From assembly GCF_003008615.1 (NCBI RefSeq), contig NZ_CP027657.1, positions 372,001-436,000 on the forward strand: a DNA stretch of 64,000 nucleotides, given 5' to 3'. Source of the DNA: Pseudomonas mendocina (GTDB lineage Bacteria > Pseudomonadota > Gammaproteobacteria > Pseudomonadales > Pseudomonadaceae). A program made the position numbers and the translations under genes. Below, in pieces: positions 23,247-33,132 of this stretch. Positions within the stretch are counted from its first letter, which is position 1. Each line of letters begins with the position of its first letter. Under the pieces are notes generated by a model. That model saw nothing but the letters and a program-made list of their open reading frames with translations, was not told the DNA's origin and ran no database searches.

Positions 23247-23933
23247 TCAGAGGGCGAACAGCAGGGGCAGCAACAAGGCGGTAGCGATACCCAGCAGGCT
23301 CATGCCCAGCGCGGCGAACGCACCGCACTCCTGCCCTTCCTGCAAGGCATGGGCGGTGCCGATGGCGTGGGCATTGATACCGTAGCTCAGGCCACGCGCA
23401 GCCGGATGCTCGACGCCCGCCCAGCTCAGCAACAACGGCCCGAGCGCGGTGCCGATGACGCCGGTGAGCATCACCATCACCGCCGCCAGCGAAGCGATAC
23501 CGCCGATCTGCTCGGCCACCGGCATGGCGATCGGCATGGTCACCGACTTCGGCGCCAGGCTCATCACCACGCTCCAGTCAGCGCCCAGAACCCAGCCAAT
23601 AGCCAGGGTCAGCGCCACCGACAGCACACCACCGGCCGTGAGGGTGATCATCACCGGCCAGAACAGTTGGCGGATGCGCTCGATGTTGTGCTGCAGCGGT
23701 ACCGCCAAAGCGACAGTGGCTGGCCCCAACAGCCAGGCGATGGGTTCAGCGCCAGCACGGTAGGTCGCGTAGTCCACGCCGCACAGCAGCAAGGTGCTGA
23801 CGATCAGCACGACCGAAACCAGCACCGGCTGCAGCACCAGCCAGCCACTGCGCCGGTAGAGCCAAGCGGCGAACAGGAACGCCGCCAGCGTCAGCGCGAT
23901 GGCGAACAGCGGATGCTGGGTCAACATATTCAT
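23247..23933 (-). CDS. lrgB: LrgB family membrane protein
   Basis: A 228-residue protein with about six or seven transmembrane segments and the conserved LrgB stretch APKSVTMPIAM and GINAHAIGTAHA. LrgAB/CidAB pairs were first described as holin-like, but in several bacteria they act as carriers for pyruvate or glycolate. The start ATG 23933 overlaps the lrgA stop (ATGA), giving translational coupling. It is the last gene of an operon beginning with the sulfite/nitrite reductase. Its role there is inference. Confidence 0.92.
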   Translation of the reverse strand: MNMLTQHPLFAIALTLAAFLFAAWLYRRSGWLVLQPVLVSVVLIVSTLLLCGVDYATYRAGAEPIAWLLGPATVALAVPLQHNIERIRQLFWPVMITLTAGGVLSVALTLAIGWVLGADWSVVMSLAPKSVTMPIAMPVAEQIGGIASLAAVMVMLTGVIGTALGPLLLSWAGVEHPAARGLSYGINAHAIGTAHALQEGQECGAFAALGMSLLGIATALLLPLLFAL

Positions 23934-24286
23934 CGGTCGCGCTCCTGACGACGGATCAGCGTCTGCAGCAACCAGCCGCAGAACGGCACCGTGACCAGCA
24001 ACGACAGCACCAGCGCGGCGGCGATCACCGGCAGTTCGCCGAGCAGCAGATCGCTGCTGGTCATGATGCCGGCGGCCGGCACCGCGAGCAGCAGCGGCAG
24101 GTAGGGCAACAGACCGCCAGCAGCCTGTTGCAACGGCTCAGGCACGGCGCCGCGCCACATCAGCCAGACCGAGAGCAACAGCAGGCCGATGATCGACCCC
24201 GGCAACATCGGCAGCAGCCAGTGGTTGAGGGCCACACCGGCAAGTTGCAGCAGCACCAGCCAGAACAGTCCGCGCAACAGCGTCAT
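23930..24286 (-). CDS. lrgA: CidA/LrgA family membrane protein
   Basis: A 118-residue protein with four transmembrane segments and the family motif LPGSIIGLLLLSVWL. Its charged C-terminus (IRRQERDR) is cytosolic. It pairs with LrgB to form a holin-like or organic-acid transport complex. ATG 24286 overlaps the stop of the DUF934 gene by four bases and is preferred over a longer frame that lacks homology. The tight overlaps with genes on both sides mean it is expressed with the reductase operon. Confidence 0.9.
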   Translation of the reverse strand: MTLLRGLFWLVLLQLAGVALNHWLLPMLPGSIIGLLLLSVWLMWRGAVPEPLQQAAGGLLPYLPLLLAVPAAGIMTSSDLLLGELPVIAAALVLSLLVTVPFCGWLLQTLIRRQERDR

Positions 24287-24813
24287 GTTGGCTCTGCCTC
24301 GGCACCGGCACGCCCACGCCGGAACAGCGGACGCGGCTCGATGACCGAGCGTCCGTAGAGCACGCTCAACCCTGCCAGGCCCTTGAGCGCATCCTCCACC
24401 GACTTGTCGGCGCGCACGGCAAAGGCATCGAAGCCGCATTGGCGCATATGCGCCAACTGATCACGCAACACATCGCCCACCGCGCGCAACTCGCCGCGCC
24501 AGCCCAGGCGGGTGCGCAGCAGGTAGGCCTGGCTGTAGCCACGGCCGTCGCGAAAGCTGGGAAAGTCGATGGCGATCAGCGCCAGGCTGGGCAGAAACGG
24601 CTGCAGCTCCTCAGGTTCGTCATCCACCTGCAGCAACAGACCGTCGGCGCTCATCGCCCTGCCCTGCAGCACCTCGGGCGACTGCCGTTCACGCCAGGCG
24701 GCCAGTGGCAGGATCAGTGGCGCCGCACCAACGTTCTCGGCGTCATGCAATTGCCAGGGATCATCAGTGACGATGCGGGCCTGGCCATCGACCAGGCGGA
24801 TCAGATTGTTCAT
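24283..24813 (-). CDS. DUF934 family protein, partner of the sulfite/nitrite reductase
   Basis: A 176-residue soluble protein with the DUF934 pattern (LIAIDFPSFRDGRGYSQAYLLRTR...LRAVGDVLRDQLAHMRQCGFDAF). DUF934 proteins are nearly always encoded directly after CysI/NirA-type hemoproteins and are thought to support their function, though the mechanism is unknown. ATG 24813 overlaps the reductase stop by four bases, so the two are translationally coupled. P. aeruginosa has such partners at PA1837 and PA4129 (from memory). Confidence 0.88.
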   Translation of the reverse strand: MNNLIRLVDGQARIVTDDPWQLHDAENVGAAPLILPLAAWRERQSPEVLQGRAMSADGLLLQVDDEPEELQPFLPSLALIAIDFPSFRDGRGYSQAYLLRTRLGWRGELRAVGDVLRDQLAHMRQCGFDAFAVRADKSVEDALKGLAGLSVLYGRSVIEPRPLFRRGRAGAEAEPT

Positions 24814-26477
24814 GCCACCACCTCCCGGGTGTAAACGCGTTCCTTGAAGGGCTCCAGGCCGATGCGCTGGAAGGTATCGAGAAAGCCCTCGTTGACTTCG
24901 CGATAGTCGACGTAGGTCTGCACGATCCGCTCGATCACAGCCGGCACCTGCTCGGCGGCGAACGATGGGCCGATCACCTTGCCCAGCGCCGCTTGCTGGC
25001 CCTGGCTGCCGCCGAGGGTCAACTGGTACCACTCGCTGCCGTTCTTGTCGACGCCGAGGATGCCGATGTTACCGATGTGGTGATGACCGCAGGCGTTCAT
25101 GCAGCCGGAGATGTTCAGGCTCAGTTCGCCCAGGTCGTGCAGGTAGTCGAGGTCGTCGAAACGCTGCTGGATGGCCTGGGCGATGGGGATCGACTTGGCG
25201 TTGGCCAGCGCGCAGAAATCGCCGCCCGGGCAAGCGATGATATCGGTGAGCAAGCCGGCGTTGGCGGTGCCCAGCCCGGCAGCTTGCACCTGCGTCCAGA
25301 GCGCGTACAGGTCGGCTTTGCGTACATCGGGCAGCACCAGGTTCTGCTCGTGCGCGATACGAATCTCGCCGAAACCGTAGCGCTCGCTCCAGTCGGCAAC
25401 GGCCTCCATCTGCTCGGCCGTGACGTCGCCGGGCGGCGCGCTGATGCCGGGCTTGGTCGACAGTACCACGCTGAGGTAGCCGGGCACCTGATGCGCCATG
25501 ACATTGCGCGACACCCAACGCGCGAAGGCCTCGTCGCGTGCCAGGTGAGTGCCGAATTCGAGGTCGAGGCCGTCCAGCGGGGCATAGGCCGGTTTATGGA
25601 AGGACGCGGCGACGCGCTGGTATTCATCCTCGGTGAGCCGCGCCGGGCCATCCTTGATCGGCTGCCATTCGCGCTCCACCTCGGCGGCGAAGGCTTCGAT
25701 ACCCAGCGCCTTGACCAGGATCTTGATGCGCGCCTTGTACTTGTTGTCGCGCCGACCATGGCGGTTGTACACGCGCAGGATAGCCTCGACGTAAGACAGG
25801 CAATCCTGCCAGTGCAACCCCTCGCGCAGGGTCTGGGCGATGATCGGCGTGCGCCCCAGGCCACCGCCTACCAGCACGCGCAGGCGCAGCTCGTCGGCCT
25901 CGTCGCGATACAGTTGCAGGCCGATGTCATGCACCTGAATCGCCGCACGATCCTGCTCGGCGGCGCACAGGGCGATCTTGAACTTGCGCGGCAGGAACAG
26001 GAATTCCGGATTGACCGTCGACCACTGGCGGAGAATCTCGGCCAGTGGACGCGGGTCGAGGTACTCGTCGGCGGCAACCCCGGCGAAGGCTTCGGTGGTG
26101 ATGTTGCGCACGCAGTTGCCCGAGGTCTGGATGGCATGCATATCGTGGTCAGCCAGCCAGTCGAGGATGTCCGGTACGCGCTCCAGATCGATCCAGTTGA
26201 ACTGGATGTTCTGCCGCGTGGTGAAATGGCCGTAGCCCCGGTCGTACTCGCGGGCGATGTGCGCCAGCGCGCGCATCTGCGGGGCAGAGAGGGTGCCGTA
26301 GGGGATCGCCACGCGCAGCATATAGGCATGCTTCTGCAGGTACAGGCCGTTCTGCAGGCGCAACGGCAGGAACTCTTCTTCGCTCAGCTCGTCGGCCAGG
26401 CGCCGCTGTACCTGGTCGCGGAACTGGGCCACGCGTTCGCGCACCAGTGCGCGGTCATAATCGTCGTATTGGTACAT
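24810..26477 (-). CDS. nirA: sulfite/nitrite reductase hemoprotein, PA4130 (NirA)-like
   Basis: A 555-residue siroheme enzyme with two ferredoxin-like repeats. The 4Fe-4S/siroheme ligands are complete: Cys416-x5-Cys422 (CPGGDFC) and Cys459-x3-Cys463 (CMNACGHHH). It reduces sulfite to sulfide or nitrite to ammonia in the cytoplasm. Sequence alone does not separate CysI from NirA, but the neighbours (DUF934 downstream; ccoG, MocR regulator and orphan ccoN on the other side) match the PA4129-PA4134 cluster rather than the cysI locus. AGGAGG lies 9 bases before ATG 26477. The promoter carries the shared motif at 26531-26569. Confidence 0.9.
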   Translation of the reverse strand: MYQYDDYDRALVRERVAQFRDQVQRRLADELSEEEFLPLRLQNGLYLQKHAYMLRVAIPYGTLSAPQMRALAHIAREYDRGYGHFTTRQNIQFNWIDLERVPDILDWLADHDMHAIQTSGNCVRNITTEAFAGVAADEYLDPRPLAEILRQWSTVNPEFLFLPRKFKIALCAAEQDRAAIQVHDIGLQLYRDEADELRLRVLVGGGLGRTPIIAQTLREGLHWQDCLSYVEAILRVYNRHGRRDNKYKARIKILVKALGIEAFAAEVEREWQPIKDGPARLTEDEYQRVAASFHKPAYAPLDGLDLEFGTHLARDEAFARWVSRNVMAHQVPGYLSVVLSTKPGISAPPGDVTAEQMEAVADWSERYGFGEIRIAHEQNLVLPDVRKADLYALWTQVQAAGLGTANAGLLTDIIACPGGDFCALANAKSIPIAQAIQQRFDDLDYLHDLGELSLNISGCMNACGHHHIGNIGILGVDKNGSEWYQLTLGGSQGQQAALGKVIGPSFAAEQVPAVIERIVQTYVDYREVNEGFLDTFQRIGLEPFKERVYTREVVA

Positions 26478-26530
26478 GCCGGCAGGCCTCCTGATCACGG
26501 GGCGTCGACTATGCCTGTCAGGTGTGCTTC

Positions 26531-26569
26531 GAAAACAGCGCCAGAAAAGCCTAAAAAAACCAGATCAGA
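26531..26569 (-). promoter_or_regulatory. shared upstream motif, nirA copy
   Basis: Read on the minus strand: ATCTGATCTGG, a T-rich spacer, then CTGGCGCTGTTTTC. TCTGAT and CTGnnnCTGTTTT are 25 bases apart (start to start), exactly as at 26721-26759 and 31365-31403. It ends 53 bases before the nirA start codon. Confidence 0.7.
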
Positions 26570-26720
26570 TAGGTGCGGCAGTGGCCAGAACCGAGCGCTG
26601 ATTGGCGCGGCGCGATGTCGCAGGTGCGCTTCTGTACCGCGAAGGCTTAAAACCACAGACGCCAGATATGACGTGGCCTGGAGACGTATCAGGTGCTTTT
26701 CGGCACGATTCCCCGCCATA

Positions 26721-26759
26721 TCTGATCCGCTTTTTTATAGAAAACCTGAGTCTGTTTTG
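26721..26759 (+). promoter_or_regulatory. shared upstream motif, ccoG copy
   Basis: TCTGATCCGC followed by a T-rich spacer and CTGAGTCTGTTTTG, 59 bases before the ccoG start. The last 14 bases are identical to the ccoN copy at 31390-31403, and the spacing from TCTGAT is the same. Confidence 0.75.
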
Positions 26760-26818
26760 CGATCAGTTCCCCTCTGATCATGGCGCCAGCCTGATAAACG
26801 CCTGATGAGGGCAACAAC

Positions 26819-28231
26819 ATGACTGACCGTATCCCCGTGCGGGCCATCGAGACCATCGATCCTGCCAAACCCATCCGCCTGACACCGGCCCAGGCCGGCG
26901 GCCCGATCCACACGCGCAGTTTCACCGGACGCTTTCGCAACCTGCGCCTGCTCGGTGCCGGCCTGCTGTTCCTGCTGTTCTTCGGCACCGCCTGGATCAA
27001 CTGGAATGGCCGCCAGGCCGTACTCTGGGATCTGGACAACCGCCAGTTCCACATCTTCGGCGCGACCTTCTGGCCGCAGGACTTCATCCTGCTCTCGGCG
27101 ATTCTGATCATCGCCGCCTTCGGCCTGTTCTTCATCACCGTACTCGCCGGCCGCGTCTGGTGTGGCTACGCCTGCCCACAGAGCGTATGGACCTGGGTCT
27201 TCATGCGCGTCGAGCAGATCACCGAAGGTGACCGCGGCCAGCGCATCAAGCTCGATGCCGCGCCCTGGTCACTGCAGAAACTGGCTCGGCGCAGCGCCAA
27301 GCATGGCCTGTGGCTGGCCGTGAGCGTGGTCACGGCGATGGCCTTCATCGGCTACTTCACCCCGGTGCGCCAGTTGACCACTGACCTGCTGACCCTGGAG
27401 ATGGGTGCGACCACCGCGTTCTGGGTGCTCTCCTTCACCGCTGCCACCTACATCAACGCCGGCTGGCTGCGCGAGAAGGTGTGCCGCGACATGTGCCCCT
27501 ACTCGCGCTTCCAGAGCGTGATGTTCGACAGCGATACGCTGGTCATCTCCTATGACGCCGCCCGTGGCGAAAACCGCGGCCCGCGTCGCAAGGATGCCGA
27601 CTACAAGGCCGAAGGCCTCGGTGATTGCATCGACTGCACCATGTGCGTACAGGTCTGCCCGACCGGCATCGACATCCGCGATGGCCTGCAACTGGAGTGC
27701 ATCGGCTGCGGCGCCTGCGTCGACGCCTGCGACAGCGTGATGGACAAGCTCGGCTATGACCGTGGCCTGGTGCGCTACAGCTCCGAGCACGAACTGGCTG
27801 GCGGCAAGACCAACTGGCTGCGCCCGCGCCTGATCGGCTACGCAGCGATGCTGGCGGTGATGATCGGCGCCTTCGTCTGGGCGTTGAACGAGCGACCACT
27901 GATCTCCCTGGATGTGACCCGCGACCGTGGCCTGTTCCGCGAGAACGCTCTGGGCCAGATCGAGAACATCTACAGCCTGAAGATCATCAACAAGACCCAG
28001 CAGCCACGTAGCTATGCCATTGGCCTGGTCGATGCTGGCGACTTCGAGTTGCATGGCCCACGCACGCTGAACCTGGCTCCGGGCGAGATCCGCGATCTGC
28101 CGGTGAGCGTCGCGCTGACCGCCACGCACAATGGCGCCGGCCCGCAAACCCTGCGCTTCGAGGTAAGCGACAAAGCCGACTCGCAGAGCCGCGTCAGCAC
28201 CAAGAGCACCTTCCTCGCGCCGCTGCGTTGA
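26819..28231 (+). CDS. ccoG: cytochrome c oxidase accessory protein CcoG (RdxA/FixG-like)
   Basis: A 470-residue inner-membrane iron-sulfur protein. It has several transmembrane helices (about 42-60, 90-110, 160-180, 195-215 and 340-358), CGYACPQSVWTW in an early loop, CRDMCPYSR, and a ferredoxin-type pair of 4Fe-4S motifs CIDCTMCVQVCP and CIGCGACVDACD. A C-terminal Ig-like FixG domain follows. CcoG supports cbb3 oxidase biogenesis, probably by handling copper reduction. Here it is an extra copy next to an orphan ccoN, corresponding to PA4131. It is divergent from nirA with the shared promoter motif. Confidence 0.92.
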   Translation: MTDRIPVRAIETIDPAKPIRLTPAQAGGPIHTRSFTGRFRNLRLLGAGLLFLLFFGTAWINWNGRQAVLWDLDNRQFHIFGATFWPQDFILLSAILIIAAFGLFFITVLAGRVWCGYACPQSVWTWVFMRVEQITEGDRGQRIKLDAAPWSLQKLARRSAKHGLWLAVSVVTAMAFIGYFTPVRQLTTDLLTLEMGATTAFWVLSFTAATYINAGWLREKVCRDMCPYSRFQSVMFDSDTLVISYDAARGENRGPRRKDADYKAEGLGDCIDCTMCVQVCPTGIDIRDGLQLECIGCGACVDACDSVMDKLGYDRGLVRYSSEHELAGGKTNWLRPRLIGYAAMLAVMIGAFVWALNERPLISLDVTRDRGLFRENALGQIENIYSLKIINKTQQPRSYAIGLVDAGDFELHGPRTLNLAPGEIRDLPVSVALTATHNGAGPQTLRFEVSDKADSQSRVSTKSTFLAPLR

Positions 28232-28237
28232 GGCCTG

Positions 28238-28296
28238 GTAACCCGGATGCAAGCCGGGGCGGCCGCTGTCCGCTCCCCAGATTGCATCCGGGCTAC
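28238..28296. repeat. paired REP-like repeats (CCCGGAT family)
   Basis: ACCCGGATGCAAGCCGGGG and CCCCAGATTGCATCCGGGCT in inverted orientation, starting 7 bases after the ccoG stop. The first copy has diverged (AAGCCGGGG). Confidence 0.7.
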
Positions 28297-28312
28297 GGTT
28301 GCCACGAGTTTT

Positions 28313-28390
28313 GTAGGAGCGGCTGGGCGGCATTTCGTTTCAGCCGCGAAACCACCGCGCTGCACCATTCGCGGATAAATCCGCTCCTAC
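28313..28390. repeat. paired GTAGGAGCGG repeats
   Basis: GTAGGAGCGGCTGGGCGG with CAGCCGCGAA, and TTCGCGGATAAATCCGCTCC (28368-28387) followed by TAC, are inverted relative to each other. Same family as 21151-21210. It sits between ccoG and the MocR gene. Confidence 0.65.
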
Positions 28391-28426
28391 ATCCGAAACC
28401 TGCCCTCCCACTAACGAGGCACTGCC

Positions 28427-29902
28427 ATGTCTGCCGCTCACCCCGTAAAGTGTTCGTCCGTACCCTTTGCGTCGGTGAACCAGGACAGGATGAAACGCTA
28501 CGAAAAATTCGCCGACGAGATCGCCGAGCTGATCCGCACCGGCGTGCTCGGCCCCGGTGAGAAGGTGCCCTCGGTGCGCCACGCCAGCCGCACTTACGGG
28601 GTCAGCCCATCCACCGTGTTCCAGGCCTACTACCTGCTGGAAGACCGCGGCCTGATCCAGGCGCGGGCACGTTCCGGCTACTTCGTCCGCGAGCACGCCA
28701 AGCGCCCGCTGCACGAACCGGAGCTGACCGCTCACGCGGCGCAGACCACCGAGGTGGACGTCAGCGAACTGGTGTTCTCCGTGCTCGCCTCGCTGAAGGA
28801 TCCGCACACCGTGCCCTTCGGTTCGGCGTTCCCCAGCCCCGACCTGTTCCCCCTGCCGCGCCTGGCCAAGAGCATGGCGCACGCCCTGCGCATGCTCTCG
28901 CCGCACGAGATCATCGCCGACATGACCGCCGGCAACGCCGACCTGCGCCGGCAGATCGCCCTGCGCTACATGGTCAGCGGCGTGATGCTGCCAATGGAGG
29001 AACTGGTGATCAGCAACGGCGCCATGGAGGCGCTCAACCTCTGCCTGCAGTGCGTGACCCAGCCGGGCGACCTGGTGGCCATCGAGTCACCGACCTTCTA
29101 TGCCTGCCTGCAGGTGCTGGAACGGCTGCAGCTCAAGGCCGTGGAAATCCCCGTGCACCCGCGCGAGGGCATCGACCTGAACGCCCTGTCGGAGAGTCTC
29201 AAGCAACTGCCGATCAAGGCCTGCTGGTTCATGAGCAGCCTGCAGAACCCACTGGGCGCAAGCATGAGCGAGACGAAGAAGCAGGCGCTGTACGATCTGC
29301 TGGTCGAGCATCAGGTGCCACTGATCGAGGACGACGTGTACGCCGAGCTTTATTTCGGCAGCCACCCGCCCAAGCCGGTGAAGAGCTTCGACCGCGAAGG
29401 GCTGGTGATGCATTGCAGCTCCTTCTCCAAGAGCCTGGCTCCGGGCTATCGCATCGGTTGGGTGGCCGGCGGCCGCTATGCCGAGCAGATCGCCCGGCTC
29501 AAGCTGATGACCACCATCTCGCCGTCGGTGCCGGCCCAGGCGGCCTTGGCTGACTACCTGCAGCACGGCGGTTACGACCGCCACCTGCGCAAGCTGCGCC
29601 ACGCCCTGGAAATGCAGCAGAGCGCCATGCTCGCCTCGGCAGCCCGGCACTTTCCGGCCAGCACACGGGTGACGCGACCGGCAGGCGGATACTTCCTCTG
29701 GTTCGAATTTCCCGAGCGCCTGGATTCGCTGCAACTGCTGCGCCTGGCGCTGGCACAGGGTATCAGCCTGGCGCCGGGGCCGATCTTCTCCGCCAGCCAG
29801 GGCTTCCGTCACTGCGCACGGCTGAACTACGGCCACCCCTGGAACCCGCGCAACGAGCAGGCCATGGAAGTGCTCGGGCGCCTGGTGGCGGGCTTGTTGT
29901 AG
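28427..29902 (+). CDS. MocR-type PLP-dependent regulator, MpaR-like
   Basis: A 491-residue protein. The GntR winged helix-turn-helix spans about residues 22-92 (KVPSVRHASRTYGVSPSTVFQAYYLLE) and is fused to a fold-type I aminotransferase domain (about 120-491). The PLP lysine is in SSFSKSLAPGYRIGW, and NPLG and EDDVYAEL are present. MocR proteins act as PLP-sensing regulators. Position between ccoG and orphan ccoN matches PA4132 (MpaR) of P. aeruginosa. It is the best candidate reader of the motif in front of nirA, ccoG and ccoN. CGAGG lies 7 bases upstream of ATG 28427. Confidence 0.9.
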   Translation: MSAAHPVKCSSVPFASVNQDRMKRYEKFADEIAELIRTGVLGPGEKVPSVRHASRTYGVSPSTVFQAYYLLEDRGLIQARARSGYFVREHAKRPLHEPELTAHAAQTTEVDVSELVFSVLASLKDPHTVPFGSAFPSPDLFPLPRLAKSMAHALRMLSPHEIIADMTAGNADLRRQIALRYMVSGVMLPMEELVISNGAMEALNLCLQCVTQPGDLVAIESPTFYACLQVLERLQLKAVEIPVHPREGIDLNALSESLKQLPIKACWFMSSLQNPLGASMSETKKQALYDLLVEHQVPLIEDDVYAELYFGSHPPKPVKSFDREGLVMHCSSFSKSLAPGYRIGWVAGGRYAEQIARLKLMTTISPSVPAQAALADYLQHGGYDRHLRKLRHALEMQQSAMLASAARHFPASTRVTRPAGGYFLWFEFPERLDSLQLLRLALAQGISLAPGPIFSASQGFRHCARLNYGHPWNPRNEQAMEVLGRLVAGLL

Positions 29903-29957
29903 CCCGGATGAAATCCGTGGCAGGAGAAGGAGTTTTCCCGGATTGCATCCGGGCTAC
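29899..29957. repeat. paired REP-like repeats (CCCGGAT family)
   Basis: GTAGCCCGGATGAAATCCG (its TAG is the stop codon of the MocR gene) and CCGGATTGCATCCGGGCTAC (29938-29957) in inverted orientation. Confidence 0.7.
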
Positions 29958-29980
29958 GCCGCTGAAAGCGTCCGACGGCT

Positions 29981-30047
29981 GGTGCGCGCTGCGCACCCTA
30001 CAATCCTCCGCGACTATGCCTACCGCGTAGGGTGCGCTGTGCGCACC
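29981..30047. repeat. inverted pair of GTAGGGTGCGC repeats
   Basis: GGTGCGCGCTGCGCACCCTA (29981-30000) and TAGGGTGCGCTGTGCGCACC (30028-30047) face each other. Each is self-complementary. They lie upstream of the monooxygenase gene. Confidence 0.7.
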
Positions 30048-30144
30048 GAAATCAACACCCGCACTCCCGGCATGATCCCGGACAATATCTGCCACCGCTC
30101 CCCGCCCTAGACTCGGGCTTTCCCGAGTTCGCAAGGAGAGCAGC

Positions 30145-31317
30145 ATGTCACCCGATGTCGTCATCGTCGGCGCCGGCCCCGCCGGCCTATGCCTGGCGCG
30201 CGCCCTGTCTGGGCAAGGCCTGTCCATCGTGATGCTGGAGCGCCAGGCCGAGCAGGCCCTGGCGGAACCGGCCTTCGACGGTCGCGAGATCGCCCTGACC
30301 CATGGCTCGCAGGCGCTGCTAGAACGCCTCGGGCTGTGGCCACGCTTACCTACCGAAGACATCGCCGTGCTGCGTGATGCCCAGGTATTCAACGGCCCCT
30401 CGCTGTTCGCCCTGAAGATCCGCGCCGAACAGGCCGGCGCCGAGCGCCTCGGCCATCTGGTGGCCAACCAGGCGATTCGCCGCGCCGCCTATCAGGCCGT
30501 CAGCGAGTGCGCCGACGTGCAACTGCTGTGTGACACCCGTATTCATGCCATTCAGCAGAGCGAGAGCGAGGTGAAACTGGTGCTGCAGGACGGCCAGGTG
30601 CTGCAACCACGCCTGCTGGTCGCCGCCGACAGCCGCTTCTCGGAGACCCGTCGCCAACTCGGCATCGGCGCGCAGCTCAAGGACTTCGGCAAAACCATGC
30701 TGGTGTGCCGCATGCAGCATGAAGAGGATCACCAGCAGGTGGCCTGGGAGTGGTTCGGCTATGGCCAGACACTCGCCCTGCTGCCGCTCAATGGCAGCCA
30801 GTCGTCCACCGTGCTGACCCTGCCGCCACGCGAGATCGAGCGCTTGCAGAAGCTGGACGAAGCCAGCTTCGCTCGCGAGATGGAGCAACGCTTCGACCGC
30901 CGTCTGGGCGCCATGCAACTGGTCAGCAGCCGCCACGCCTACCCGCTGGTGGGTGCTTACGCGCGGCGTATGGTCGGCAACCGCTGCGCCCTGCTCGGCG
31001 ATGCCGCCGTGGGCATGCACCCGGTCACCGCGCATGGCTTCAACTTCGGCCTGATTGGTGTGCAACTGCTCAGCGACGCACTGCTGGCTGCCCATGCCAA
31101 GCATCAGGACATCGGCGCAGTCGCCCCGCTGGCCCGCTACGAACGTCAGCTGCGTCTGGCCACCTGGCCGCTGTATCAGGCCACCAACCTGCTGGTGGAG
31201 CTGTACACCAACGACCACCTGCCTGCCCGCCTGCTGCGCGGTGCCGGCCTACGTGTGGCGCAGGGCCTGCTGCCGCTGAAGAAGGGCATTGCCCGTCACC
31301 TGACCGCCCAGGCCTGA
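30145..31317 (+). CDS. ubiM: UbiH/UbiM-like FAD monooxygenase
   Basis: A 390-residue flavoprotein hydroxylase. The N-terminal [17 protein letters not shown] binds [14 protein letters not shown] and [16 protein letters not shown] follow, and [25 protein letters not shown] is the second FAD motif. The [11 protein letters not shown] and [11 protein letters not shown] variants fit UbiM, a broad-specificity ubiquinone-ring hydroxylase, better than UbiF/UbiH, but this is from memory of the family. Its position between the MocR gene and ccoN would tie quinone synthesis to the oxidase module. GGAG lies about 9 bases upstream of ATG 30145. Confidence 0.82.
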
Positions 31318-31364
31318 GCACTGAAAGCGCGCGCCGGACAAGGCGCGCGTCACTCGCCGCTCCA

Positions 31365-31403
31365 TCTGATACGCATCAGACAGCAGTTTCTGAGTCTGTT
31401 TTG
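31365..31403 (+). promoter_or_regulatory. shared upstream motif, ccoN copy
   Basis: TCTGATACGC, spacer, CTGAGTCTGTTTTG, with identical spacing to the ccoG copy. It ends 72 bases before the ccoN start. The first part is embedded in the perfect palindrome CTGAT-ACGC-ATCAG (31366-31379), which resembles an Anr/Fnr site with altered end bases. Confidence 0.75.
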
Positions 31404-31475
31404 TTTTCCCCAGCCTCCCTACAGTTTCGCCATTCGCGCGGCTGCGCCCGCATTACTGTATGGAAGGTTACCGCG

Positions 31476-32909
31476 ATGCATTCTGCTGTTCCCCATCCGG
31501 CCTACAACTACAAGGTCGTTCGCCAATTCACCATCATGACCATATTCTGGGGCGTGGTGGGCATGTGCAACGGCGTGTTCATCGCCGCCCAGCTGGTCTG
31601 GCCGGAGCTCAATTTCGACACGCCCTGGCTGAGTTTCGGCCGCCTGCGCCCACTGCATACCAGCCTGGTGATCTTCGGCTTCGCCGGCAGCGCGCAGTTC
31701 GCCGCCAGCTACTATGCGGTACAGCGCACCTGCCAGACGCGACTGTTCTCCGACAAACTGGCTGCGTTCACCTTCTGGGGCTGGCAGGCGACCATCCTGA
31801 TCATGCTGGTGACCCTGCCCATGGGCCTGACCACCACCAAGGAATACGCCGAGATCGAATTCACCGGCGCGGTGTGGATGGCCATCGTCTGGGTCGCCTA
31901 CGGCATCGTCTTCTTCACCACACTGACGCAGCGCAAGACGCGCCACATCTACGTCGGCAACTGGTTCTTCGGCGCCTTCATCCTGGTCATCGCCATCCTC
32001 CACGTGGTCAACCACCTGTCGATCCCGGTGAGCTGGTTCAAGTCCTATTCGGTGTATTCCGGCGCCACCGACGCCATGGTGCAGTGGTGGTACGGGCACA
32101 ACGCGGTGGGCTTCTTCCTCACCACCGGTTTCCTCGGGATGATGTATTACTTCGTACCCAAGCAGGTGAACCGGCCGGTGTATTCCTACCGCCTTTCCAT
32201 CGTCCACTTCTGGGCGCTGATCACCCTGTACATCTGGGCCGGCCCGCACCACCTGCACTACACCGCCCTGCCCGATTGGGCACAGTCGCTCGGCATGGTG
32301 ATGTCGATCATCCTCCTGGCGCCAAGCTGGGGCGGCATGGTCAACGGCATGATGACGCTGTCAGGCGCCTGGCACCTGCTGCGCACCGACCCGATCCTGC
32401 GCTTTCTGGTGGTGTCGCTGGCGTTCTACGGCATGAGCACCTTCGAAGGCCCGATGATGGCGATCAAGACCGTCAACGCCCTGTCGCACTACACCGACTG
32501 GACCATCGGCCACGTACATGCCGGCGCGCTAGGCTGGGTGGCGATGATCACCTTCGGCTCGCTCTATCACCTGATCCCGAAAGTCTTCGGCCGCGACGGC
32601 ATGTACAGCACCGGGATGATCAACGCGCACTTCTGGCTGGCCACCATCGGCACCGTGCTGTACATCGCCTCGATGTGGGTCAACGGCATCACCCAGGGTC
32701 TGATGTGGCGCGCAGTCAACGAGGACGGCACCCTCACCTACTCCTTCGTCGAGGCGCTGGAAGCCAGTCACCCCGGCTTCGTGGTGCGCCTGGTCGGCGG
32801 CCTGTGCTTCCTCGCCGGCATGCTGCTGATGGCGCTCAATACCTGGCTGACCCTGCGCCGCCCAGCCACCGAATCGCACGATGCCGCAGAGGCCGCTCAT
32901 GCCAGCTGA
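31476..32909 (+). CDS. ccoN4: cbb3-type cytochrome c oxidase subunit I, orphan CcoN4-like
   Basis: A 477-residue heme-copper oxidase catalytic subunit with 12 transmembrane helices. Ligands are visible: [51 protein letters not shown] (CuB histidines) and [17 protein letters not shown] (heme ligands). It reduces oxygen at the inner membrane. No ccoO or ccoP follows, so it must use the O and P subunits of the main operon, as described for orphan CcoN isoforms in P. aeruginosa (CcoN4, PA4133), reported to help under cyanide. GGAAGG lies 8 bases upstream of ATG 31476. Confidence 0.93.
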
Positions 32910-33132
32910 AGCCTGGTGGATGATCGCCCTGGCGGTGTTCTTCCTCGGCGTGCAACTGAGCCTCGGCCGTGGCAGCCAGCGTGACCTCGACGAGGCCACC
33001 ATGCTGCCATTCGCCGACGATCCCGAAGTGGCCCGGCGGGTCGAACGCGATACCGGGCGCAGCACTCGCGGCTGCGCCTGCCCCGGCACCTGCAGCGGAG
33101 ACTGCGAGCATCAGGGGCGGCAGGAGTTCTGA
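32899..33132 (+). CDS. small CcoQ-like membrane protein with Cys-rich tail
   Basis: A 77-residue protein. One N-terminal transmembrane helix ([18 protein letters not shown]) is followed by a polar segment and a C-terminal tail [14 protein letters not shown] with four cysteines. It overlaps ccoN by 11 bases, with AGAGG before its ATG inside ccoN, so the two are coupled. Position and topology fit a CcoQ-type accessory subunit (PA4134 equivalent). The cysteine tail is not part of standard CcoQ as I know it. The stop codon TGA is also the first triplet of repeat copy B. Confidence 0.78.

Follow-up and report, generated by a model that had tools for sequence, protein, structure and literature searches.

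Here we report that a motif repeated in front of three units in a 64,000-nucleotide (nt) stretch of Pseudomonas mendocina DNA (contig NZ_CP027657.1, positions 372,001–436,000; hereafter the window) is, as far as sequence comparison can tell, very probably the operator of MpaR, a MocR-type regulator of the cyanide response that is encoded in the middle of the same gene module. The motif is bipartite, with an upstream box (ATCTGATCCGNTTTTT; box 1) and a downstream box (YCTGNNNCTGTTWT; box 2) that starts 24 bp further on, and it precedes nirA, the ccoG–mpaR unit and ccoN4. Pseudomonads make cyanide yet must keep respiring, by means that are only partly understood. One half of the site is already published: in P. 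aeruginosa PA14, a palindromic ATCTGAT has been located 61–62 bp upstream of where transcription of these three units begins (Smiley et al., mBio 2023, PMC10790758). The second box and its spacing were not found in what we consulted of that paper, the main text of which does not contain the words bipartite, direct repeat, inverted repeat or half-site.

A search pattern covering both boxes (TCTGATNNG, then 14 to 18 nt, then CTGNNNCTGTTTT) matched the window three times, at 26569–26532 on the minus strand and at 26721–26758 and 31365–31402 on the plus strand, and gave no match among 100 dinucleotide shuffles of the window. Across the 5.77-Mb genome the same three sites were the only exact matches, and the reversed pattern that served as a control gave none. 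With up to two mismatches allowed, the genome yielded 55 matches (3 exact, 1 with one mismatch and 51 with two); the reversed pattern, a poor control against codon bias, yielded 3. The 52 inexact matches, not inspected singly, resemble CTG-rich coding sequence. The bipartite motif that the original prediction had described before nirA, ccoG and ccoN is thus real, and its particulars also held: CTG lies exactly 25 bases from TCTGAT, the ccoG and ccoN4 sites agree in all of their last 14 bases, and the sites as delimited in that prediction end 53, 59 and 72 bp (predicted, 53–72 bp) before ATG codons of nirA (26477), ccoG (26819) and ccoN4 (31476), respectively. The three sites are:

26532..26570, minus strand: nirA operator, with box 1 ATCTGATCTGGTTTTT at 26570–26555 and box 2 TCTGGCGCTGTTTT at 26545–26532.
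26720..26758, plus strand: ccoG(–mpaR) operator, with box 1 ATCTGATCCGCTTTTT at 26720–26735 and box 2 CCTGAGTCTGTTTT at 26745–26758.
31364..31402, plus strand: ccoN4 operator, with box 1 ATCTGATACGCATCAG at 31364–31379 and box 2 TCTGAGTCTGTTTT at 31389–31402.

Because these are the only exact matches in the genome, the predicted regulon in this organism would consist, as far as the pattern shows, of nirA (with a DUF934 gene and lrgAB), ccoG–mpaR, and ccoN4 with a small ccoQ-like open reading frame (ORF).

Conservation in front of the same genes in related genomes, the lack of which the original prediction had named as grounds for refutation, was found at every ccoG and nirA promoter compared. 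The comparison set comprised 80 loci, with flanks of up to 8 kb, that were fetched by MpaR protein homology without reference to the motif. From these we took each ccoG or nirA match beginning near the protein start, which gave 71 ccoG and 41 nirA promoters; two cut ccoG matches were left out, and 7 of the 80 loci have no ccoG match. Both boxes are present in 71/71 ccoG promoters, at 14–15 of 15 scored positions, and in 41/41 nirA promoters, at 13–15; the 15 positions were picked after viewing these same promoter profiles, and Markov shuffles reached a score of 13 in 6/7100 and 1/4100 cases, respectively. All four ccoN4 genes in these loci have the site as well (14–15 positions). When TCTGAT alone was used as the anchor (60–160 bp upstream), box 2 lay at a constant offset in 69/69 ccoG and 31/32 nirA promoters. 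Dereplication to below 80% identity left 42 of the 69 ccoG promoters and 15 of the 31 nirA promoters, and in those 42 ccoG promoters CTG at +25 and CTGT at +31, counted here and below from the first T of TCTGAT, are invariant and the linker is variable.

This pattern makes it hardly credible that the three promoters match by chance or arose by recent duplication of a single ancestral promoter and were retained by drift. The 14-base identity between the ccoG and ccoN4 sites would suit such an origin, whereas in the dereplicated sets the linkers vary and the boxes are fixed, and the boxes persist across genera and before unrelated genes. In the genus, 109 of 298 genomes have strict matches, some of which look by eye like chance hits in coding sequence, compared with 1 for the reversed control, and a similar pattern finds at least one exact match in 25/25 genomes of a sister genus. 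There, ccoN4 was found beside mpaR in none of the 23 genomes with mpaR in view (stretches of all 25 were read; G598 and G601 are the exceptions). Two genomes show the ccoG arrangement in unusual forms: one genome (G093) has two ccoG–mpaR units with one operator each (L128 and L129), the first of which has a divergent nirA site as well, and in another (L160, G082) an exact operator stands ahead of what appears by eye to be a degraded ccoG remnant.

The two boxes are held in a near-constant register with a −10-like hexamer. At +55 to +61, the target classes carry TACAGT, CATAGT, GATCAT or CACAAT, and the register agrees to within one base among ccoG, nirA, ccoN4 and two further targets described below, a 27-residue peptide gene and cydAB. 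In the window the likely −10 elements are:

26508..26513, minus strand: likely −10 of nirA, CATAGT, placed by its position 56–61 bases past the first T of TCTGAT; CATAGT is the commonest −10 form in the nirA profile (9/15).
26776..26781, plus strand: likely −10 of ccoG, GATCAT, placed by position; A at +56 and T at +60 are invariant in the 42 dereplicated ccoG promoters.
31420..31425, plus strand: likely −10 of ccoN4, TACAGT; the bd-oxidase promoter of G326 has this hexamer in the same position.

Because this hexamer is conserved, transcription would start near +67, so that box 1 would cover about −68 to −53 and box 2, over the −35 region, about −43 to −30. Such a start, read from promoter sequence alone, lies 62 bp past the last T of ATCTGAT, and the published distance of 61–62 bp fits it if counted from that T. 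A box over a poor −35 with a near-constant −10 suits an activator that contacts the polymerase, and so suggests an activator site.

It is rather unlikely, if far from negligible, that only box 1 is the MpaR site and that RNA polymerase reads box 2 as a conserved −35 element or as a spacer constraint. Given the conserved −10, box 2 stands where a −35 belongs and may in part be the −35 itself, and the mutagenesis described in P. aeruginosa concerned box 1 (PMC10790758). Nevertheless, the CTG at about −42 to −40, outside the −35 hexamer, is invariant in 42/42 dereplicated ccoG promoters. So is CTGT, a stricter conservation than is usual for the −35 elements of sigma-70 promoters. TGT, moreover, is among the base groups that PMC5320631 lists as characteristic of MocR sites.

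Published genetics and locus context tie the site to MpaR in particular. Published genetics from P. aeruginosa indicate that ATCTGAT is required for the activity of the ccoN4 promoter and that ccoN4 expression depends on MpaR, with full induction depending on endogenous cyanide, although by the authors' own statement no in vitro approach was taken; a cyanide-modified pyridoxal phosphate was proposed as the MpaR signal (PMC10790758). NirA is described elsewhere as a cyanide-tolerant nitrite reductase, with MpaR control cited (2025, PMC12688703). One locus (L139) carries the operator immediately before mpaR with no ccoG match in between, and weaker forms (13–14 of 15 positions) precede mpaR at L193–L197 and L201. 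The encoded protein in the window (28427–29902) has a GntR winged helix-turn-helix and an aminotransferase class I/II domain (PF00392 and PF00155, above gathering scores), which is the MocR architecture; the name mpaR is given by synteny with the published P. aeruginosa cluster. The MpaR-operator reading thus draws on conservation before the same genes, on L139 and on the published dependence of ccoN4 on box 1 and MpaR. The original prediction had offered an MpaR-like operator or a common activator site as alternatives; on these grounds both are favoured together, as an activator-type MpaR operator.

Another regulator of low-oxygen respiration, of the Anr/FNR type or a response regulator, might in principle own the site, with MpaR merely one of its targets. 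The ccoN4 box 1 contains TCTGATACGCATCAGA, which resembles an FNR-type dyad, and one genome without an MpaR-grade protein (G167) keeps a ccoN4-type site. We nonetheless hold such a regulator to be very improbable. Among the three window sites the dyad is present by eye in that of ccoN4 only (1/3), and it was set aside as the motif on that count; ccoN4 expression requires mpaR; the site is conserved around mpaR and adjoins an mpaR homologue in a different family; and the pattern of the peptide gene described below occurs in 0/10 genomes without an MpaR-grade protein.

Several observations weigh against the MpaR reading. Many of the compared species are close kin, as their loss on dereplication indicates. 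Three orphan mpaR genes with no adjacent ccoG match (G026, G031 and G161; L133, L134 and L135) have no operator by regular expression, and a search at 13 of 15 positions found none at a fourth, L200. The site in G167 (C283:22217–22254) belongs to a genome in which the closest MpaR match (1.2e-114) is of no more than paralogue grade; the regulator may have been lost or may fall in an assembly gap. A different, GC-rich MpaR site has been reported upstream of mvfR, in vitro and with truncated protein (cited in PMC10790758). The boxes are alike only over a core of 6–7 bases, (C)AYCTG. Their distance of 24 bp in the dereplicated ccoG promoters corresponds to 2.3 turns (at 10.5 bp per turn), and a distance of whole helix turns is usual for MocR sites (Suvorova and Rodionov 2016, PMC5320631).

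The direct repeat itself was upheld in part. The original prediction had read YCTGAK as direct repeats about 24 bases apart; in a test of six widths, the 6- and 7-base cores scored best at an offset of 24 bp, with 17 and 14 of 2000 column shuffles, respectively, scoring as high; for widths of 8–12 bases the number was 96–128 of 2000 and, from width 9 upwards, the best offset moved to 30 bp. A repeat of whole boxes was rejected: the 12-column profile at 24/25 bp scores no better than shuffled columns (1120/5000 reach its score). Because the boxes share only the short core, a strict direct repeat is unproven.

The MpaR-type operator also precedes genes outside the module, foremost among them a small ORF of 27 residues. 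Outlying operator matches in two genome pairs (G251/G297 and G007/G096) stand before ORFs of one family, each a single hydrophobic helix by eye. An operator-blind codon pattern of the C-terminal part of the peptide tested, INDEPENDENTLY, matches 52/298 genomes of the genus, with no control match seen, and a relaxed pattern matches 197/298, with 5 control matches. Peptide loci were fetched in batches of 30, then 25, then 4 true ones from some 200 matches; one (L181) is untestable, being cut by a contig end. All 58 testable loci carry an operator of 12–15 of 15 positions at 90–207 bp before the start codon, the score of 12 belonging to L233 and L244; shuffles of 25 of the upstream regions reached 12 in 13/5000 cases and 13 in none. 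The association is therefore all or nothing in the loci examined, and its significance is limited by kinship and by positions chosen from the same kind of data.

This ORF is very probably translated, because a Shine–Dalgarno-like sequence precedes 54/54 of the peptide ORFs and because substitutions fall mostly at third codon positions (6821, 3759 and 12736 pairwise substitutions at positions 1, 2 and 3 in 45 dereplicated ORFs). In two genomes (G094 and G192) the peptide operator begins about 30 bp past the end of the mpaR match, with the start codon about 145 bp further on, and in a third (G149) the peptide is encoded on the opposite strand, no more than about 1 kb from mpaR. A third operator in the sister-genus genome G601 predicted the peptide, which was found there. 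Otherwise the genes lack a common neighbourhood: each of the two most frequent neighbour clusters covers 9/30 loci, and one looks by eye like katG. Both the strict and the relaxed pattern failed to detect the peptide in the window's own genome. Relaxed-pattern matches in a second genus of the family (L268 and L269) are not the peptide.

Co-occurrence with MpaR gives a test of little power because MpaR is near universal, with matches in 296/298 genomes of the genus at E 1e-100, paralogues included. The relaxed peptide pattern occurs in 0/10 genomes without an MpaR match better than 1e-150, compared with 197/288 of the others (Fisher, 1.5e-5, uncorrected for kinship); 5 of those 10 genomes are only 73–90% complete, and two peptide-bearing genomes (G034 and G108) have MpaR matches of just 1e-163 and 1e-171. 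The peptide has no Pfam match and an NCBIfam match only far below the cut-off. One member has no sequence match in the PDB up to E 10, CcoM and other small oxidase subunits there included, and five peptide strings have no match in the text of the open-licence papers searched.

Sharing its operator with cbb3 assembly and catalytic subunits and, elsewhere, with a bd oxidase, the peptide may act at a terminal oxidase or the respiratory membrane, which is a guess by association. Our broader proposal is tentative: the unannotated 27-residue inner-membrane peptide (M-x-K-M-A-x-F-L-x-G-F-L-x-L-T-x-x-I-G-x-L-x-T-I-[SP]-P) might be one of the conserved core products under MpaR control in about two-thirds of the sampled genus, where it would associate with a terminal oxidase or the respiratory membrane and be required to respire when cyanide is present. 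It would then represent a new family of stand-alone, cyanide-induced oxidase cofactor peptide, with the same kind of operator having come to control a bd oxidase in another family and, in two sampled genomes, a 32-residue peptide.

That 32-residue ORF, MDGVIMLTIITATLGSFGYVMYLIHKESKENK, lies 96 bp behind an operator in G043 and G249 (L147:1875–2216 and L136). By eye it is again a single hydrophobic helix, and it is a different peptide from the 27-residue family. Compared with CcoM (PDB 5djq chain N) by BLASTP it shows a weak similarity (10/29 identical; E 3e-5 for a single comparison), and phmmer returned no PDB match up to E 10. In G063 and G036 (L140 and L141) the operator precedes a protein that has, in G063, a GAF-PAS-GGDEF-EAL architecture by Pfam, with the −10-like hexamer one base further on; a link from cyanide to cyclic di-GMP through this protein is possible. 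At four loci (L018, L072, L158 and L261) the operator stands directly before an lrgA-like gene (by Pfam for L158, by eye for the others). In the window lrgAB trail nirA, and the lrgA-like gene of L018 lies behind an operator at a locus with no nirA match.

Further afield, 18 of the 194 genomes of the order that we scanned match a looser pattern, 8 of them in the window's own family. Among the ten outside the family only G326 was read, and most of the others resemble coding chance. In G326, a member of another family, one site precedes cydAB (PF01654 and TIGR00203) with TACAGT in the exact −10 register. A second lies next to the gene of an MpaR homologue (58% identity), on its divergent side, and faces a 79-residue ORF, cydAB being on another contig. 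The sole other genome of that family examined has no looser-pattern match.

The genes of the module in the window are:

24810..26477, minus strand: nirA, siroheme nitrite/sulfite reductase family (PF01077 and PF03460).
24283..24813, minus strand: DUF934 gene, PA4129-like by position, second in the nirA unit (PF06073).
23930..24439, minus strand: lrgA (cidA/lrgA-like), third in the nirA unit (PF03788); the true start is probably downstream of 24439.
23247..23933, minus strand: lrgB, after lrgA in the nirA unit (PF04172).
26819..28231, plus strand: ccoG, cbb3 oxidase accessory protein (TIGR02745, above cut-off).
28427..29902, plus strand: mpaR, GntR/MocR regulator (PF00392 and PF00155); the true start may be the ATG at 28490.
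30145..31317, plus strand: ubiM, 5-demethoxyubiquinol hydroxylase, between mpaR and ccoN4 (NF006593, above cut-off).
31476..32909, plus strand: ccoN4, cbb3 oxidase catalytic subunit (TIGR00780, above cut-off, and PF00115); the number 4 is given by synteny.
32899..33132, plus strand: small ccoQ4-like ORF of 77 residues, named by position alone, with no Pfam match.

An alternative ORF start at 31460 lies in a different frame from ccoN4, and TIGR00780 matches only the frame from 31476. Matches to ubiM also occur at L015, L017, L079, L081 and L084, yet most of the loci fetched with MpaR have no match to the gene. Short intergenic repeats of the type GTAGGAGCG / CCCGGATG...GGGCTAC, by eye resembling repetitive extragenic palindromic elements, occur at 28231–28400 and 29900–30080 of the window.

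In the mechanism that we favour, cyanide would alter MpaR, as the published proposal has it. The regulator would occupy box 1, for which there is genetic evidence from others, and, we infer, box 2, and would recruit RNA polymerase to promoters with a poor −35, the class of activation being likewise inferred. Through the ccoG–mpaR unit it would raise its own level in a positive feedback. The output would comprise CcoG for assembly, CcoN4 as the cyanide-resistant subunit, NirA and, in about two-thirds of the sampled genus, the membrane peptide. Keyword searches of open-licence papers suggest that the conserved bipartite site and the micropeptide family appear to be new. The published 7-bp motif would thus be extended to an activator site of two defined boxes in a fixed promoter geometry, and MpaR regulons should therefore be predictable from sequence in pseudomonads. 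Already brought to light in this way are a micropeptide gene of wide conservation, lrgAB, a GAF-PAS-GGDEF-EAL protein and, in a genome of another family, a bd oxidase; the 27-residue protein, apparently switched on by a cyanide regulator, is a directly testable candidate for a part in cyanide respiration.

Among known systems, very small proteins tied to terminal oxidases include CcoM of cbb3 oxidase (PDB 5djq chain N) and CydX and CydZ of bd oxidases, the last encoded in the cioAB operons of pseudomonads according to the text of PMC4325964. Unlike these, the 27-residue peptide is encoded by a stand-alone gene with its own MpaR-type operator. We know of no regulation that it shares with YohP of Escherichia coli. 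By description, the only basis on which we compared the two, YohP is likewise a small membrane protein of 27 residues and is made under stress (PMC12719787). The MocR operators of GabR, TauR and PdxR, as presented in PMC5320631, the main text of which does not contain the words ccoN or nitrite, resemble the present site in being spaced and multi-boxed, in having a regulator with GntR and aminotransferase-fold parts, in autoregulation, in nearby targets and in the TGT group, and differ from its 24-bp period and short common core. Closest is the MpaR/ATCTGAT system of P. aeruginosa (PMC10790758), which shares the regulator, the three promoters, the element and a compatible distance to the start. 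As described there, that system has one 7-bp palindromic motif, whereas the element here is bipartite, with a second box fixed over the −35 and conserved across species, and its predicted targets extend to the 27-residue peptide, lrgAB, the GGDEF/EAL protein and the bd oxidase.

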